From contig JAHDCN010000065.1 of NCBI GenBank assembly GCA_020629815.1, positions 1 through 11,389 on the forward strand: a stretch of DNA of 11,389 bases, read 5' to 3'. Positions 15 through 7,756 of this stretch are shown in pieces (position 1 is the first letter of the stretch; each line of letters opens with the position of its first letter). Under the pieces are notes generated by a model. That model was not told where the DNA came from and did no database searches. It worked only from the letters and a program-made list of their open reading frames with translations. The stretch is from Verrucomicrobiota bacterium. GTDB lineage: Bacteria; Verrucomicrobiota; Verrucomicrobiia; Verrucomicrobiales; DEV007. Both the position numbers and the translations under genes were made by a program.

Positions 15-3000
15 TCACTCGTCTCTTTCGGTTGCTTTGCTGCGGACCAAATCACTGAGAGCGATGGCGGTGATGACGTCGGCGTAGGTGCCGCCGTTTT
101 TTGCGGCTTCCTGATGGGCTTTGCGCAAGAGCTCTGAATCGCTGGCGATGAGTGGCCTGCCGAGGGCGAACTGGGCAATTTTCCAACTCAGGGTTTCCGC
201 TACGCGGTCACTCTCTGCGAGCAGGTCCATAAGCTCTGCTGTTTTTTGGTAAGCGATCGATTCTTCATTTCCGGGGATCAGAATTTCACCATCCTCACGG
301 AGCGGGTTTCCGTGTTCGTCATTCTCATGAAAGCTGCCGAGGCCGTTGAATTTTTCCAGGCCGAAAGCAAGCGGTTCGAATTTGGCATGACAGACGCCGC
401 ACGATTTCTTCGCGATTCGGTCTTCGGCAATGCTGCGCTGGGTCAGGCCCGGTTCGGAGGCGACCGGGGTGGTATCAACGCAGGGTGGGGGATCAGAAAC
501 GATGCCCCGCAGAATGTCGTGCAAGACAAACAGGCCACGGGTCACCATAGAGGCTTCGTCTCCGCCTTTGGTGAGAACAGCTCCCTGAGTGAGTAGACCA
601 CCGCGCCCGGGTTCGTTGCTAAGATCAACGCGGACCAGCCCGCCGTTTTCGGAATGAGGGATGTTCTGAAAGCCGTAGTGCGTTGCCAGTGCCGGGGTGA
701 CAAAGGCGACGGGAGTATTGAGTAAATCAGCCAAGGGGCGTTGTTGTTCCCACACGATCTCACGGAAGTAGGCGCGGGTCTCGCGTTTCATATCTTCCGC
801 GAGCTGCGGATTCCAATCGGGAAACTTTTCCGGGGCGGGGCGCAAGTTATCCAGGCTGTCGAGATTGAGCCAGTCGCTGACGAATTCCACCGATCGTTCA
901 ATTGCGCGCGGATCCGACATCATGCGAACGACGTGTTGTTTGATGGCATCGGCGCTGGTGAGTTCGCCCCGGTCGGCGGCCTGCATGAGCTGTTCATCCG
1001 GCGGTGCACCCCAAAGCAGGTAGCTGATTCGCGAAGCCATTTCGTAATCGGTGACTGGCCAGGCGCTACCGTCGCCACGCTGATTTTCTATGCGGTAGAG
1101 AAAGCGGGGCGATTGCAGCATGGCTTCGAGGATGAAGGCTGTGGCATCGTCGAAATCACCACCGGCGCTGGCCACGGAAGTTGAGATGCCCCGGAAGGAG
1201 ACGAGCTCGTATTCGTCGAGCGGCCCCCGCAATACCCACTTACCCATCGCCTCGAGAAACTTGCGCATTTGTTTGTCGGTAAGGCTGCGGCTGTTGGAGA
1301 AACGGGCGGCGAAGGCGGCGACGTCCATTTTCTCGACAATCTTTTCCGCCAGCTGCGCATAGGATTCGATGTGTTTCAGATCGACGGATAGATTGTAGGC
1401 GGTGTTCCGAAATCCGTCGGCCCGCAGATCTGGTGGTAGGATTTCCCTCGCTTCTTTGGCGATATCGACACCGACACTGGCCTTCACGGTTTCAATATAT
1501 TCATTGATTGTGAGTCGGCGGGCCCAGACTCTAGCGGCGCTGTCGGGAAAGGCATAGTCGGCCGCATCGATCTGCTGAATTGGCCAGGTCGCACCATCAT
1601 CGATCCATTGTTTCACGGCTTGTTTTTCTTCGGCCGAAAGCGGCGGCCGATCATGCGGCATTTCGTCGGTTTCGATGGATTCCCAAAGCAGGCTGTTGGC
1701 GGCATTTCCTTTGCTGATCATGCCTGCGGAGGCAAACGCTGTATCCGCGCGGGAAAGGTCGAGTTTGCCTTTGCGGGTGGAGGGATCATGGCAGTCGAGG
1801 CATTGGCGCGCGAGAATCGGAGCTATCTTTTTGCGGAAGTGAGCAGCGTTGGCTTCGGTCAGTAATTCTTCCGGAGTTTTGCTTTTGCCGATCACTTCTC
1901 CATCTTTGGGCCCGGCGCGAAAGTTGGTGGCGACTTCTTTGGGGCTTAGGTCGCGACTGTAGATCGCAACCAGGTGGAACGAGCCCAGCCAGTGGCGGCC
2001 GTAGTTGAGCTCATCGGCCAAAGCGAGCCGGAAATTGCCTGCCCAGTTGGAGGTGTCTCCCTCGACATTGCGTGTATTGTTTGGTTTGCCGTCGAGGTAA
2101 AGCGTCGCTTTTCCCGACCGATCCCGGGTGTAGACCACATGTTGCAGCTGTGGTTTCACGGCGCCGGGTTTGGAGGCAAGAGAAGGCATCCCGTTGGGCC
2201 CGGAACGATTGGTGCGAAACCGGACATCGAACCGGTCTTTCTCCTGTCCGAGGGTAAAGTTCCGGTTGGTAGAATCCTGCGACAGTGTAACGATTCGGGC
2301 TGGTCCCTCCTGGTCGGTTCGCGCCGTGCGCAGCCAGGCTTCGATTGTGACTTCGCCGGATTCGCGAACTGCGGCAATCAATCTCCGTGGGGCTTCGTCG
2401 GTGCGCAGTTGGGATTTTCCAAAGACCAACAGGGATCCGTTTTCTTCCCACCGAATTTTGTCGGGGTTGGCAATGCTGAGATCGGCAGGCGGGGTGAGTC
2501 CGGACCGATCCTTGACCTGGGTGCCGCTGGCTTCGGAAAAATCATACAATACCTGCAGTCCGGATCGAACCCGTTCACCTTGCCATTCTGGCGAAGCCGG
2601 GGCCGTAACGGCGGGGTGCGTTTTCGTCAGGGCGGGGGGGGCAGGAGCGGCTTCGATTCCGGCGGTAAAATTGTCGCGAACCTGGTCGGGTGTCAGCGCG
2701 CGATCGTAAACGGCTGCCAGATAAATCGTGCCCAGCCAGGGGCGGTCACCGGTGGCTTCATTGCCGAGTAAAAAAGAGAATGAATCATTCCAGTGGGCAA
2801 TGCTTCCGGGAGTCTGTGTTTCCGAGTTTTGCTCTCCATTGACGAATAGCCGGGCGGTGCCGTTGGCTGCTTTCGTGTAGAGCAGGTGAGTGAGTTTCGC
2901 TTTGGCGGAATCTTTCTGACCGCGCAACTCAGGTTGGCCATTGCTGGAATTTTGATCCGTGCTGAACCGCATTTCGTAGCGGTTACGTTCCTGCAAAAGC

Positions 3001-3380
3001 GAAAACCAACGGTTGGTGGAATTCTGTGAGAAGGAGATGATGCGCGCGGGCCCATCCTGTTCGAGATTGGCGGGCTGGATCCACGCCTCGACCGAGACAG
3101 CATTGCTTTTCTGCAGGGTTTCACGCAACCGGGTTGTCGCGCCGGTTGCCTTGATCGTAGTGGGGCGAATGATTTGTAACGTCCCTTTTGAACGCTTCAC
3201 ATTCTCCGGGTTGGCGATCTTGAGGCGCAACGCCGGAAGCTGACCGGAGCGATCTTCCACAAGGCTGCCTGCGGGGTTGGAAAAGTCGTAGAGAACTACC
3301 AGACCTTCCTGATGCCGGTCTGCATAGCCGACACTTGGCAGAATAAACAGAAGCAGGATTAGGTAGGGAAGGTGTTTCAT
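15..3380 (-). CDS. Secreted double-LamG, di-heme planctomycete-type cytochrome (PSCyt1 / DUF1587-1595-1592-1588-1585)
   Basis: Protein of 1121 residues, predicted exported. Residues 1-20 form a signal peptide ending near GYA. Two LamG/concanavalin-like domains follow (about 25-240 and 272-489), joined by a Pro/Ala-rich linker (about 244-265). The C-terminal half has the fixed order of this family: PSCyt1 (about 515-600) with heme motif C527-L-D-C530-H531 and a likely axial Met in the M574-P pair, then DUF1587 (about 620-685), DUF1595 (about 695-755), DUF1592 (about 760-895), DUF1588 (about 925-1020) with a second C994-G-V-C997-H998 motif, and DUF1585 (about 1035-1110). The family is typical of Planctomycetes and Verrucomicrobia. 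Its biochemical role is not settled; extracytoplasmic redox or polysaccharide-linked functions have been proposed. The LamG domains suggest glycan or ligand binding, which is inference. ATG start at 3380 is supported by the signal peptide; no clear Shine-Dalgarno is seen. It lies 75 bp downstream of the SUFU gene. In related genomes a DUF1552 gene commonly follows; that would be outside the window. Confidence 0.93.
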   Translation of the reverse strand: MKHLPYLILLLFILPSVGYADRHQEGLVVLYDFSNPAGSLVEDRSGQLPALRLKIANPENVKRSKGTLQIIRPTTIKATGATTRLRETLQKSNAVSVEAWIQPANLEQDGPARIISFSQNSTNRWFSLLQERNRYEMRFSTDQNSSNGQPELRGQKDSAKAKLTHLLYTKAANGTARLFVNGEQNSETQTPGSIAHWNDSFSFLLGNEATGDRPWLGTIYLAAVYDRALTPDQVRDNFTAGIEAAPAPPALTKTHPAVTAPASPEWQGERVRSGLQVLYDFSEASGTQVKDRSGLTPPADLSIANPDKIRWEENGSLLVFGKSQLRTDEAPRRLIAAVRESGEVTIEAWLRTARTDQEGPARIVTLSQDSTNRNFTLGQEKDRFDVRFRTNRSGPNGMPSLASKPGAVKPQLQHVVYTRDRSGKATLYLDGKPNNTRNVEGDTSNWAGNFRLALADELNYGRHWLGSFHLVAIYSRDLSPKEVATNFRAGPKDGEVIGKSKTPEELLTEANAAHFRKKIAPILARQCLDCHDPSTRKGKLDLSRADTAFASAGMISKGNAANSLLWESIETDEMPHDRPPLSAEEKQAVKQWIDDGATWPIQQIDAADYAFPDSAARVWARRLTINEYIETVKASVGVDIAKEAREILPPDLRADGFRNTAYNLSVDLKHIESYAQLAEKIVEKMDVAAFAARFSNSRSLTDKQMRKFLEAMGKWVLRGPLDEYELVSFRGISTSVASAGGDFDDATAFILEAMLQSPRFLYRIENQRGDGSAWPVTDYEMASRISYLLWGAPPDEQLMQAADRGELTSADAIKQHVVRMMSDPRAIERSVEFVSDWLNLDSLDNLRPAPEKFPDWNPQLAEDMKRETRAYFREIVWEQQRPLADLLNTPVAFVTPALATHYGFQNIPHSENGGLVRVDLSNEPGRGGLLTQGAVLTKGGDEASMVTRGLFVLHDILRGIVSDPPPCVDTTPVASEPGLTQRSIAEDRIAKKSCGVCHAKFEPLAFGLEKFNGLGSFHENDEHGNPLREDGEILIPGNEESIAYQKTAELMDLLAESDRVAETLSWKIAQFALGRPLIASDSELLRKAHQEAAKNGGTYADVITAIALSDLVRSKATERDE

Positions 3381-3455
3381 CCGAATTGGCGCATCGCTAT
3401 TTGTAGCAAGTTCCCTACCGCAGCAGAAGTCGCGTTTGCGTGATGAGTGTTTGGA

Positions 3456-4628
3456 CTATACTTGAAATCCTTCGACCTCCAGTAGATCCGCAAGGGACTG
3501 AATCGATGCCTTCTCCTCTTTGCTGATCTTGCTGCCAAAGCCAAGAAAGCCCCCACTTGCGGCTGCAATTTCTTTGGCGAGAAAAAGGAGCGAAAGCTTG
3601 TAGTCATTCTTTTCCCCGGGATTCGAGATCGCCGTTTCCAGGACTCCTTTTGCGCTGGCCATGTGAATGGGCAGATTCGGTAAATCATTCGTCATCACAT
3701 CCTCCAGAATACCGGGATTGTTCATGATTTCGCGAGCTCCTTCACGGAAGACTGCGGAAGGGGCTCCGTCGCCGGAGGCGATCAATTCGAAAAATTTGTT
3801 CATCTCCTTCTTATCGACTTTGCCGTCTGCACCTGCGATGAAGAAGAAGACATAGATTGGCATTTTGGTCAGGAAGGCCCGGCTGTCCTGGTCGAGATCG
3901 ACTGAAGCCATTTCACTGCCTAATGAGCTGGGACGTGACGGGTCGAGCAATTCATAGACGTTGTGTTTCTCAAAACCGTCGTACAAAGCTTCGGTGCCTT
4001 TGGCCAGCTTGAGATTCATTTCATCTTCGTGCAGTGGAATCACGCCGTGGAAGTGAATTGTTTTTTCCTCATCGATTTTTAATTCGTAAAAATCAGGCGG
4101 CAGCATCACCGGACTTACCAGCATGGCGCAACTCAAACCGGAATTCTCCGTGAACGGTTCCGGTGGATTGCCGTTGGGCACGGTATGTCCCATCCACAGC
4201 CAGGTTTTGTATTCGTGAGGAAAACGGGACAGGAACTTGAGCATCCGGATCGGCCAGTAGTTTCTTTCATCCTGAAATTCCTCTTCACCCATTTTCCAGT
4301 CGGGAGGCAGGCAGATGTAGAGTTCCGAAAATTGCAGCTCCTCGGCACCTTCCGGCGCGGTCATCGCACGGTCACTCATGCCTGAGGTGACCAATGTATA
4401 GTAGTTACGTTCTGCGGTGGGCTCTACGATATGAATGTCGATATGAACCAAGTCGGATACTAGTTCGTGAAAAACATTCTTCACTGGTCCGACGTGTGCC
4501 TCGATATGGTCCGAGATGCGTTCGATATTTTCAGAATCACCGATTGCCAGTTCCAATTTTCGGTCTTCCTGTTCCTCGTGTCTATAGATAGGTGCACCCG
4601 ACTCTGAACGTTCCTGCTCGTCTTCCAT
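3456..4628 (-). CDS. Suppressor-of-fused (SUFU) domain protein with TerB-like C-terminal domain
   Basis: Probably a cytoplasmic protein of 390 residues with no signal peptide or membrane segment. The first 45 residues are highly charged. A bacterial SUFU domain covers about 48-228; its signature parts are L103-Y-I-C-L-P-P-D-W and the W143-to-P156 stretch containing the family's G-H-T-x-P-N-G-N-P-P pattern. The C-terminal part (about 250-390) resembles a TerB/tellurite-resistance-like helical domain: A265-G-A-D-G-K-V-D-K-K-E, then a second helical block at about 345-385. Bacterial SUFU proteins are known mainly as presumed immunity proteins of polymorphic toxin systems, but no toxin gene is visible here, so the role is open. 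I chose the ATG at 4628; a TTG at 4664 would add 12 polar residues that look unlike conserved sequence. Neither start has a good ribosome-binding site. The gene follows the DUF4350 gene by 72 bp and could be cotranscribed with it. Confidence 0.85.
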   Translation of the reverse strand: MEDEQERSESGAPIYRHEEQEDRKLELAIGDSENIERISDHIEAHVGPVKNVFHELVSDLVHIDIHIVEPTAERNYYTLVTSGMSDRAMTAPEGAEELQFSELYICLPPDWKMGEEEFQDERNYWPIRMLKFLSRFPHEYKTWLWMGHTVPNGNPPEPFTENSGLSCAMLVSPVMLPPDFYELKIDEEKTIHFHGVIPLHEDEMNLKLAKGTEALYDGFEKHNVYELLDPSRPSSLGSEMASVDLDQDSRAFLTKMPIYVFFFIAGADGKVDKKEMNKFFELIASGDGAPSAVFREGAREIMNNPGILEDVMTNDLPNLPIHMASAKGVLETAISNPGEKNDYKLSLLFLAKEIAAASGGFLGFGSKISKEEKASIQSLADLLEVEGFQV

Positions 4629-4700
4629 AGAATTAGTCTGATTGATAGATTTGCGGGATGGCAATTCTAATAACCGCTGAATCGCGGGAGACGAGGTCCG

Positions 4701-6014
4701 CTATCGCTTCCGCAAAGCCTGCGAAATGGCCCGGTAGGTTTCGACTATCGAAACAGACTTTGGATCCTGGGTGTGTGCATGAAGCAGGGCGTCTACTTTT
4801 TGGTCCTGCTCTTTACTGGAGGAACGGCGACCTTTACGAAGTGTTTCCACACAGCGGGGCAGCAACTCTTTGGTCGGGATGCTTCGCTTGAGCAAGTTGA
4901 CGAATCCTTTTCCTGATTGTTCCCCGGCGACGGATGATCCTCCGATCAGCCCGCGCTCGACTGACTCATCTCCCGGGGCGAGTGATGTGGCGGATCGCCA
5001 GGCCCACAGCCCGATGAAAAGAAACAGGCCGAAGAAAAATCCATGCAGTCGATAGCGGCGGATCAATTTCATCGCTCCACCGGTTTCCAGTGAGCCGTGA
5101 ATTGTCTCATCAAAAACGATGTGCGTTTTGCCGCCCAACAACCAGATGAGAAACTGAGGATCGCCACCGGCATGCAGCGATTCGTTGCTGGTGAAATAAC
5201 TGTCGGTTGCGATCACGACACTTCCTTTGCCGAATTTTCGCTCGGCAACGACAGGTTTCTTATCGAGGGTGACGGAATTTTTCCAGGACTTGTGCCCGGG
5301 GCTCAGGCGAAACTGGGAATACCACATGGGCAGGGCTGAAGGAACTCCTTTTCCAGCTTTGACCAGCCAACCTTCGTCGGGTCGCATGAACTCGCCGGCC
5401 TGGCGGGCGACGGTGATGCCGAGTCGATCTTCGAGGCGCGAGCCCAGTGCGTCACTCATGGAAATCTCAAAGTCTTTCTCCTCTTCGGACTCCTTCTCTT
5501 CTTTCTCTTTGTCGTCCTTGGTTTCAGATTCTGGATCAGTTTTTCCGGACCTTTCCCGCGCGAGTTTTTCCCGCAGTTTCCGGCGTCGCTCAAACCAGCT
5601 TTCTTCTTCGTCGGTTTTCTTGGAGCGGAATTGCAAGGGAACCTGCTTTGGGTTCAGAGTGATGATCAATCGAGCGCCTTCTTCTTTCACCGCCTGCAAA
5701 ACGGGGGAGTCATCTTTGGCGCGAAGGTCTTCAAATTCGTCCCACGGGAGACCGAGTAACAACAATGCGCTTTCCCCATCGAGGCCCTGAATGGCTGTGA
5801 GTGCCTTCAGGTTTTGCTCGGTCCGGAGATCTTCCATGCGGGACAGCGATTGATACAGAGCGCTGGTGCCGAGCGGATCACTCCGAAAGCTGGCATAGTG
5901 CGGATACATGTCGCCGGAGGCGAATCGCATATCGAGAACCCGCGCGAACACGACGATAAATCCAAGTGCCAAAAGGGCGAGGCCGACCCAGGGAAGTATT
6001 TTGGCGGCCTTCAT
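4701..6014 (-). CDS. DUF4350 domain membrane protein
   Basis: Protein of 437 residues with a membrane anchor at about 7-25, a large extracytoplasmic DUF4350 domain (about 36-305), a second membrane segment at about 324-343, and a cytoplasmic tail of about 95 residues. The domain shows the family's typical elements: Y37-P-H-Y and G-T-S-A-L-Y near the start, the G262-K-G-S-V-V-I-A-T-D-S strand followed by T-S-N-E-S-L, and H298-I-V-F-D-E-T-I-H-G near the end. DUF4350 proteins commonly neighbour DUF4129, MoxR ATPase and DUF58 genes and are thought to belong to a membrane-associated complex; no enzymatic activity is established. A Lys/Glu/Asp/Ser-rich stretch (about 156-183) looks like a disordered insertion. 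The ATG start overlaps the TGA of the upstream DUF4129 gene as ATGA (6014-6011), indicating translational coupling. An in-frame alternative start at 6116 would lie well inside the upstream gene and adds no membrane-protein-like sequence. Confidence 0.88.
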   Translation of the reverse strand: MKAAKILPWVGLALLALGFIVVFARVLDMRFASGDMYPHYASFRSDPLGTSALYQSLSRMEDLRTEQNLKALTAIQGLDGESALLLLGLPWDEFEDLRAKDDSPVLQAVKEEGARLIITLNPKQVPLQFRSKKTDEEESWFERRRKLREKLARERSGKTDPESETKDDKEKEEKESEEEKDFEISMSDALGSRLEDRLGITVARQAGEFMRPDEGWLVKAGKGVPSALPMWYSQFRLSPGHKSWKNSVTLDKKPVVAERKFGKGSVVIATDSYFTSNESLHAGGDPQFLIWLLGGKTHIVFDETIHGSLETGGAMKLIRRYRLHGFFFGLFLFIGLWAWRSATSLAPGDESVERGLIGGSSVAGEQSGKGFVNLLKRSIPTKELLPRCVETLRKGRRSSSKEQDQKVDALLHAHTQDPKSVSIVETYRAISQALRKR

Positions 6015-7756
6015 TTCGCGGCAGGGGGTTCGGTTTCGACTTCTGCTGAGATTCTTTCGTAGTTGGCGAGAAAATGCTGAATGGCTTCTTCTCCAATTTG
6101 ATGCAGCCCATACCAAACGCGCTCAAACAGTCCGGTGTTTTCTTCGAAAGCTTCGCGGAGGTCGTTCTCCATGCGGGCTCTCAGTTCGAGCTCGCGTCGG
6201 TAGTCGCGATTTGATTTGAAGCGGGCAATTTTCAACAAGCCCCGGTCACCGAGGTTCGCCAGACTGGCAAGAAAAAGTGCTCGAATCGCCAATCGGCTTT
6301 CGCCCTGAGCGATCTGTTCACGAGCGAGTTTCATCCATTCATCCTCCGGCAGGTCGGAGGCAACGATGGCTTCGCTCTCAAGATCGATGTCGGCGATGGA
6401 GAGGCCTTCCTCGGGCTCGATGGTCGGCGGCGGACGGTAGTTTCTGACCAGCAGAAAAATGAGCCAGCCAACCAGAGCTGCCGCCACAATAATCAGTCCG
6501 ATGGAAAGGGTATTGCTCAAGCCGGCAAACTGCGAAGAGGAACTGTTGCCGCTTTTCCGGCTACTGCGATTCTGGCGGCGCGACATTTCATCCATCCAGT
6601 CGCGGAGTTGCTGAAAGGAGCGCTCCACCGAGTCGGCAAATTCTCTCATTTTCTGCGCCAGCCAGGTTTGCTCTGCCGCCTTCAGCTCTTCCGGGTCGAG
6701 CCGGGAAATTTTCCACTGATACTGCTTTTGCTCCATCGTTTCGGAGATGGCCTGTTCCAGTCGATTCTCCGAACTGGCGGAATTGTTCTGAGCGTTTGCT
6801 GTTTGCAGGCAAAAGAACAACAGCAGGGGAGCGATCACTGTTGCAGATTTTTTTCGGCTTGTTTGAGGAAGTGGGGACGCCTCCCGTGCGGCCTGCAATT
6901 CGCGAGTTGCTTTTGCGCTGGCGAGGCGACTGAGCAGGTCATCACCGGTTTCCCGGGCAGTGGCGTAAAAGCAGCGCAGAACACAGGCAGCTTTTAGCAG
7001 AGGGGAAAAGATTAACCAGGTAATGATCGCCGTTCCGAAAAGAAACGTGGTGTTTAGAATGGCCGCCTCAGGATTACTGGTGAACAACGAGTCGATGCCG
7101 AAGAACGATTTCGCGAAGGTGGGCAGAATCACACAAGTCACGACTACGTTCACCCACATCAACAGCGACAGAAACGTGAGGATGAGAAGAACGCCATGGT
7201 TCTGCGCCCATTCGTAGTGGGAATTTTTCAGACTGTCTGCGACCAGTCGACGCAGTGGTTGTCGCCCAAAGTCTCGAGAAAAAACGAGCACGGTCGAATT
7301 TTGCAGAGCGGCGATGATCCAGCCCAGCGGTACAAGGAAAAAGACTCCAGCAATCAGAGCGGGCAGGGAAAAGGCCTGAATCAACCAAAGTGCTGCGAGG
7401 TAGCGGAATTTTTGCCAGCCGCTGTGTTGCGGATTGTTCCCCGGATTGACTGAGTCCCACAGGATGCTGCAAAAAATTGCCTGAAAGGTTTTCAGCCAAA
7501 AATACATGACGGTGAGAAGCAGTGCCGCGATAGCGGCGTCCCTCGCTGCATGGCTGCTCCCGCTCATGTCGGCGATGAAGTACATCAGCGCCGCGGCAAA
7601 AGGAATGCTTCCCAGATAATAGAGCAACAGTCCTTTGGCAGGACAGGTGCGGAGAAGGTGAAAGGCTTCCTCCAGAAGTTGGAGGGAACTTTTCTCTTTC
7701 GCGTCTCGCTTACGCCTGCGACTGGCGCGCTTGGGTTGTTCAGCCGTGGAAGACAT
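6011..7756 (-). CDS. Polytopic membrane protein fused to DUF4129 protein (possible two-gene fusion)
   Basis: A 581-residue open frame with two distinct halves. Residues 1-300 form an integral membrane protein: a basic N-terminus (RASRRRKRDAK), then hydrophobic segments near 41-62, 74-98, 118-152 (probably two), 186-212 and 231-252. Residues 300-323 look like a complete signal peptide (basic R-K-K, hydrophobic core, A-N-A cleavage-like end). An Arg/Ser-rich extracytoplasmic segment (about 324-410), a membrane span (about 415-437) and a cytoplasmic DUF4129 domain (about 470-565) follow, the last ending in the typical F544-E-R-V-W-Y-G. DUF4129 usually accompanies DUF4350 and MoxR/DUF58 genes in envelope-associated complexes of unknown function. 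The halves meet at an A7 tract (6848-6854); losing one A would create a TGA overlapping a GTG start (6838) for the second half. ATG at 7756 lies 10 bp after the upstream stop, with a distant GGGAG as weak ribosome-binding site. Confidence 0.85.
   Translation of the reverse strand: MSSTAEQPKRASRRRKRDAKEKSSLQLLEEAFHLLRTCPAKGLLLYYLGSIPFAAALMYFIADMSGSSHAARDAAIAALLLTVMYFWLKTFQAIFCSILWDSVNPGNNPQHSGWQKFRYLAALWLIQAFSLPALIAGVFFLVPLGWIIAALQNSTVLVFSRDFGRQPLRRLVADSLKNSHYEWAQNHGVLLILTFLSLLMWVNVVVTCVILPTFAKSFFGIDSLFTSNPEAAILNTTFLFGTAIITWLIFSPLLKAACVLRCFYATARETGDDLLSRLASAKATRELQAAREASPLPQTSRKKSATVIAPLLLFFCLQTANAQNNSASSENRLEQAISETMEQKQYQWKISRLDPEELKAAEQTWLAQKMREFADSVERSFQQLRDWMDEMSRRQNRSSRKSGNSSSSQFAGLSNTLSIGLIIVAAALVGWLIFLLVRNYRPPPTIEPEEGLSIADIDLESEAIVASDLPEDEWMKLAREQIAQGESRLAIRALFLASLANLGDRGLLKIARFKSNRDYRRELELRARMENDLREAFEENTGLFERVWYGLHQIGEEAIQHFLANYERISAEVETEPPAAK
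6848..6854 (-). other. A7 homopolymer / potential slippery site at the junction of two protein modules
   Basis: On the coding strand the codons of R301-K302-K303 read CGA AAA AAA, so seven A residues lie in the phase of a heptameric slippery site (A AAA AAA). With six A residues the frame would read ...AAT CTG CAA CAG TGA and stop at 6837-6835; that TGA overlaps GTG at 6838-6836, the codon of V307. A ribosomal -1 shift, or one extra A, would instead enter a frame that stays open to a stop at 6588. The tract and the phases are seen directly; functional slippage is not shown by the sequence. Confidence 0.7.

Follow-up and report, generated by a model that had tools for sequence, protein, structure and literature searches.

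A predicted internal signal peptide in a widespread membrane-DUF4129 fusion protein of the Verrucomicrobiota

FbcH of Bradyrhizobium japonicum, the cytochrome b/c1 precursor, reportedly joins, in a single frame, a membrane protein to a second protein that carries a signal peptide of its own, and is said to be cut by signal peptidase. A gene of similar design is found in an 11,389-nucleotide contig of a Verrucomicrobiota bacterium (JAHDCN010000065.1, assembly GCA_020629815.1; the whole contig is referred to here as the window), where a single frame of 581 residues joins a membrane domain to a DUF4129 protein. The feature typical of FbcH, a single frame in which a signal-peptide-like segment separates a membrane protein from a second protein, is present here as well, although it is weaker in motif tests and in tests with an E. 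coli matrix. The proteins themselves are unrelated, and cleavage of the Verrucomicrobiota protein is predicted from sequence. Since no cytochrome family is among the Pfam matches of the 581-residue protein, it is not FbcH itself. For an internal-signal precursor of this kind, no title or abstract on point was encountered in the literature searched, which omits most subscription journals and so offers no proof of novelty. Within that literature, PMC12456017 names fbcH, and two papers name DUF4129.

Other described systems share single features with the locus. The second half of the protein matches the DUF4129 family (PF13559) and is here fused behind a membrane domain to which no Pfam or NCBIfam family name could be matched. 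In archaea, a DUF4350/MoxR/vWA gene neighbourhood is predicted to represent a secretion or membrane-remodelling complex, as outlined in PMC5898192. Finally, Thermus dnaX possesses a run of nine A residues with a close stop in the shifted frame, as described in PMC1088944, and a shorter A-run with such a stop lies at the junction of the present gene. The gene is probably a fusion of long standing whose internal signal peptide is most likely cut by signal peptidase I, separating the membrane protein from the DUF4129 protein.

The fused frame and its two-gene relatives

By hydropathy, the first half of the protein is rich in membrane segments; after it come the internal segment, ~95 residues, a single helix and then DUF4129. 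The count of six helices ahead of the internal segment treats one long segment as a hairpin. An AlphaFold model (mean predicted local distance difference test score of 84.7) is confident at residues 21–290 and 461–570, and poor at residues 291–330 between these two domains, where a short helix is modelled at 302–316.

Matches to the protein were obtained in 33 of 56 nearby genomes, 62 of 288 genomes of the order, 36 of 286 in class searches (52 of 384 with a profile), and 43 of 387 in a search of the phylum; the nearby, order, class and phylum sets overlap and include the genome of the window. Frame structure was read at 123 loci from 122 genomes, 106 of which are fused (the window included), seven comprise two genes, and ten are broken, incomplete or unresolved. 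One two-gene locus (L149) was assigned by inspection, based on a GTGA overlap in its sequence, and one locus (L153) was tallied as fused although its first half is partly missing. In four of the ten uncounted loci, a single frame likewise runs through the junction: L023 and L024, where past the junction a contig edge is reached or the C part is lost, L062, which has a frame break within its first half, and L092, which has unread bases past the junction. The other six are L060 and L061, which belong to a single genome interrupted at contig ends; L063 and L157, which run into contig edges; and L094 and L152, which have a first half without a clear second half. Another 15 genomes, in which matches were weak or covered only a part, were left out (G036, G060, G148, G175, G188, G194, G243, G297, G336, G395, G529, G738, G762, G811 and G843). 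A candidate split in a near relative, P0001/P0026, with both pieces on contigs of 23416 bases, was given no weight, as the ends of the first piece seem to contain frame breaks.

The fused frame recurs at genus, family, order and class level around the window's organism, and also in further classes of the phylum. Judged from these sequences, the 581 residues form a genuine frame, and an old one.

The two-gene form occurs at seven loci (L091, L093, L148, L149, L150, L151 and L155). Six of these have a four-base stop/start overlap, which is GTGA in L149 and ATGA in the others, while the junction in L155 is TGA-GGA-ATG. In each case, the second gene starts at the hydrophobic segment that the fused proteins carry internally, or up to ~60 residues ahead of it (L148). 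On a tree of 112 rows, from which L149 and L156 (a very long branch) had been dropped, the split state needs five changes, or four if only well-supported branches are counted; this was a quick tree with an unplaced root and several long branches. As a separate observation, the split second gene of L149 (reverse strand, open reading frame 1090–4497) runs past DUF4129 in one frame of 1135 residues and is seemingly fused to the next gene.

Signal-peptide character of the internal segment

The internal segment is preceded by a conserved G-x-D-L motif and then by a linker that varies and is often basic, and lies ahead of an invariant W (W348 in A1). Its hydrophobic core has a median length of 15 residues, compared to 13–33 for the cores of the other membrane segments, and the 15 residues preceding the core carry a mean net charge of +2.15. 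The likeness to an N-terminal signal peptide at residues ~300–323, pointed out in the initial annotation of the window, is real.

Candidate cleavage sites were scored with a lineage matrix trained on 34 of 311 open reading frames from 20 stretches of related genomes. These 34 have N-terminal signal-peptide-like starts and were picked by a basic start, a core and no later helix; the set was not cleaned and includes some pilin-like and other anchors. To place their cleavage sites, a short iteration was started from the A-x-A rule. For the internal segments of 78 fused genes, the median score is 5.48 and 64% exceed 4, whereas the training set in leave-one-out scoring has a median of 3.86 (47% above 4) and the six other membrane segments have medians of 0.49–2.62 (6–22% above 4). 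Over all 106 fused rows, the internal segment retains a median of 4.7, with 60% above 4. In addition, 37 of the 78 internal segments and 13 of the 34 training sequences have AQ[DETNS], A[DE]E or AAE after the core, but only 0–4 of 78 do so for any other segment. Together, these features make a good case from sequence that the segment is a signal peptide with a site resembling A-x-A|Q/E/D, and a fair case that it is cleaved.

Several results weigh on the other side. About 8% of the 106 fused rows score below 2 with the lineage matrix, and two to three of the split second genes (L148, L149, L155) have poor sites in the same scoring. With two looser patterns, the first transmembrane segment equals or beats the internal one (53 and 62 of 78 versus 42 and 62 of 78). 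A simple motif test is weak, with 56 of 78 against 46.1 ± 3.9 in shuffled sequences and a largest shuffle that also reached 56, and the first (58 versus 48.5) and sixth (62 versus 46.2) transmembrane segments are likewise above their own shuffles. A matrix built from E. coli signal peptides puts the best site of the protein in the internal segment in only 34 of 78 proteins, and the median of that segment, 3.87, is only slightly above the 3.08 of the first transmembrane segment. Nor is the core the shortest, as that of the second transmembrane segment has a median of 13.

The weak outcomes of the motif and E. coli matrix tests lend some support to the segment being an uncut signal anchor, that is, a membrane helix that links both domains in one finished protein. 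The same topology needs no cleavage, and most relatives are fused. This is a possibility of some substance, albeit a doubtful one, given that the lineage-matrix scores resemble those of signal peptides and exceed those of other membrane segments, and that relatives with a natural two-gene form demonstrate that the halves can be produced separately.

In the more probable case that the internal segment is a cleaved signal peptide, the fused product would begin as an ordinary integral membrane protein. The internal Sec signal peptide (residues ~300–322) would then enter the translocase from the cytoplasmic side in a second export step, passing residues 323–413 across the membrane, and the helix at 414–433 would re-enter the membrane and leave DUF4129 in the cytoplasm. 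A cut by signal peptidase I, most likely after A320-N321-A322, would release the DUF4129 part; a signal peptidase I gene is present in this genome. One message would in this way yield two partner proteins in equal amounts, and the two products are probably parts of a membrane complex linked to MoxR, DUF58 and DUF4350. Whereas the sequences themselves show the fusion and how far it extends, the separate genes of some relatives and the signal-peptide-like make-up of the segment, topology, cleavage, equal amounts and complex membership are what we infer from them. Extended to the phylum, the balance tips slightly toward a natural polyprotein that is split by signal peptidase I at an internal signal peptide and has switched repeatedly in evolution with a two-gene, ATGA-coupled form, such that cleavage and translational coupling would be interchangeable routes to equal amounts.

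The A7 run at the junction

The initial annotation drew attention to the junction for a different reason, namely a run of seven A residues just ahead of a GTGA. Its sequence facts hold. The minus-strand frame and the A7 run are as described (Table 1), with the run at gene nucleotides 903–909 in codon phase cgA AAA AAA. Removal of one A gives R-K-N-L-Q-Q-stop and a first frame of 306 residues, the TGA of which (6837–6835) overlaps a GTG (6838–6836; V307) that opens the remaining 275 residues. Overlaps elsewhere in the operon, ATGA at 6014–6011 and TAATG around 8093, are present too. What does not follow is that the A7 created the fusion. The window has two A7 runs against 4.46 expected, the gene contains seven in-frame ATGA or GTGA motifs, a +1-frame stop is reached within four codons from 17.8% of gene positions, and 31 of the 78 fused genes have an in-frame ATGA or GTGA within the corresponding stretch of 66 query residues. 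The coincidence of A7 and GTGA is not beyond chance and is unremarkable, and the A7 is a chance run inside a basic stretch, incidental to the fusion and not its origin. The longest homopolymer of the window is in fact a G8 run at 2634–2641 (0.58 expected), also within chance.

Relatives bear this out. An A-run of at least six is found in the junction region of four of the 78 fused genes and is absent from 74, and A7 near the junction occurs in two, one of which is the window. The nearest relative found, at 54–55% identity, is fused with no A-run of at least five at the junction; no same-species genome was found among the genomes searched. The initial annotation had suggested that two coupled genes became joined at the A7, by a sequencing error or a recent natural fusion, or else that slippage yields separate and fused products, and it held that homologs fused across many genomes without a homopolymer would, on the genomic side, count against these options. 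Such homologs are what was found. With the fused frame so widespread and the A-run not conserved, sequencing error, recent fusion and slippage at A7 are all very unlikely explanations of the frame. The part of the proposal that stands is the existence of two joined proteins, with a signal-peptide-like segment between them and a real ATGA- or GTGA-overlap form in relatives.

An error in sequencing or assembly, or a recent insertion, would mean that the organism really has two genes for proteins of 306 and 275 residues. The assembly is a draft of 599 contigs and 69% completeness, and GTGA and ATGA gene pairs do exist in relatives, but the genus, family and order are fused without needing an A-run. 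Furthermore, no two-gene form was found among the loci read from the order, of which L060/L061 (from a single genome) and L063 are cut off by contig edges. The probability left to this explanation is very small.

Slippage at A7 in transcription or translation deserves equally little credence. The run does have a nearby +1-frame stop, as in Thermus dnaX, and according to PMC1088944 runs shorter than nine nucleotides may slip in some bacteria. On the other hand, there are seven A residues here rather than nine, the same source reports selection against slippage as evident at nine nucleotides in a large share of genomes, and a conserved slippery run, the mark of a programmed slippage gene, is lacking among the 78 fused genes.

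A start codon inside the gene could also yield the second half separately, and the window offers the GTG at V307. This too is unlikely, and hardly to be reckoned with. Of the 78 genes, 26 have an in-frame ATG or GTG (TTG uncounted) within the 14 codons preceding the core, whereas the remainder of these genes leads one to expect 40.6; one with a Shine-Dalgarno-like sequence occurs in four versus 5.3 expected, the window not being among the four.

Gene neighbourhood and significance

Features of the locus are listed in Table 1.

Table 1. Coordinates of the fused gene, its parts and adjacent genes in the window.
Feature	Position	Strand	Basis or remark
Whole fused gene, 581 residues	6011–7756	minus	single frame
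First half, membrane domain, residues 1–300; probably six helices	6857–7756	minus	hydropathy; AlphaFold model confident for 21–290
A7 run, part of basic stretch R-K-K	6848–6854	minus	sequence
GTGA; GTG is in-frame V307, TGA in +1 frame	6835–6838	minus	sequence
Internal signal-peptide-like segment, residues 300–322; candidate cut after A320-N321-A322	6791–6859	minus	alignment, matrix scores
Second half past candidate cut, residues 323–581	6014–6790	minus	sequence
Transmembrane helix, residues 414–433	6458–6517	minus	hydropathy
DUF4129 domain, residues 495–566	6059–6274	minus	Pfam PF13559, 32.4 bits versus curated cut-off 24.8
Next gene, DUF4350	4701–6014	minus	Pfam PF14258, 33.4 bits versus cut-off 30.4; ATGA overlap at 6014–6011
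Preceding gene, B-box-like zinc protein, 108 residues	7767–8093	minus	Pfam

Only DUF4350 adjoins the gene in the window, and DUF58 matches lie elsewhere in the genome. In relatives, the neighbourhood is richer. For instance, the fused genes of L185 and L189 are found beside DUF4350, MoxR, DUF58 and RDD genes, with SpoIIM as well in L185, and among split loci the gene occurs with DUF4350 and MoxR in L187 and with DUF4350 in L188, where four proteins were scanned. The likeness to the archaeal neighbourhood of PMC5898192 lies in the DUF4350 gene next door and in the MoxR and DUF58 genes beside the gene in relatives. It differs in that the present case is bacterial, DUF4129 is not named in the main text of that paper, and DUF4350 is the sole adjoining member in the window.

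Two other features of the flanks are of note. A small protein ending in HDGTIWE, similar to the 108-residue B-box-like protein, precedes the gene in L032, L033 and L035. Following DUF4350, a SUFU-domain protein (PF05076, E 8.4e-43) is encoded at 3456–4664, a place occupied by MoxR in L185, L187 and L189.

The interest that remains in this locus is its conserved internal signal peptide rather than its A7 run, and the whole case is a prediction. For annotation, it serves as a warning that a mid-protein signal peptide beside a homopolymer does not prove a frame error. For the poorly known MoxR-linked membrane operon, it offers two defined partners. If the internal site is cut, signal peptidase would be processing a widespread bacterial precursor whose naturally fused and split versions can be compared.
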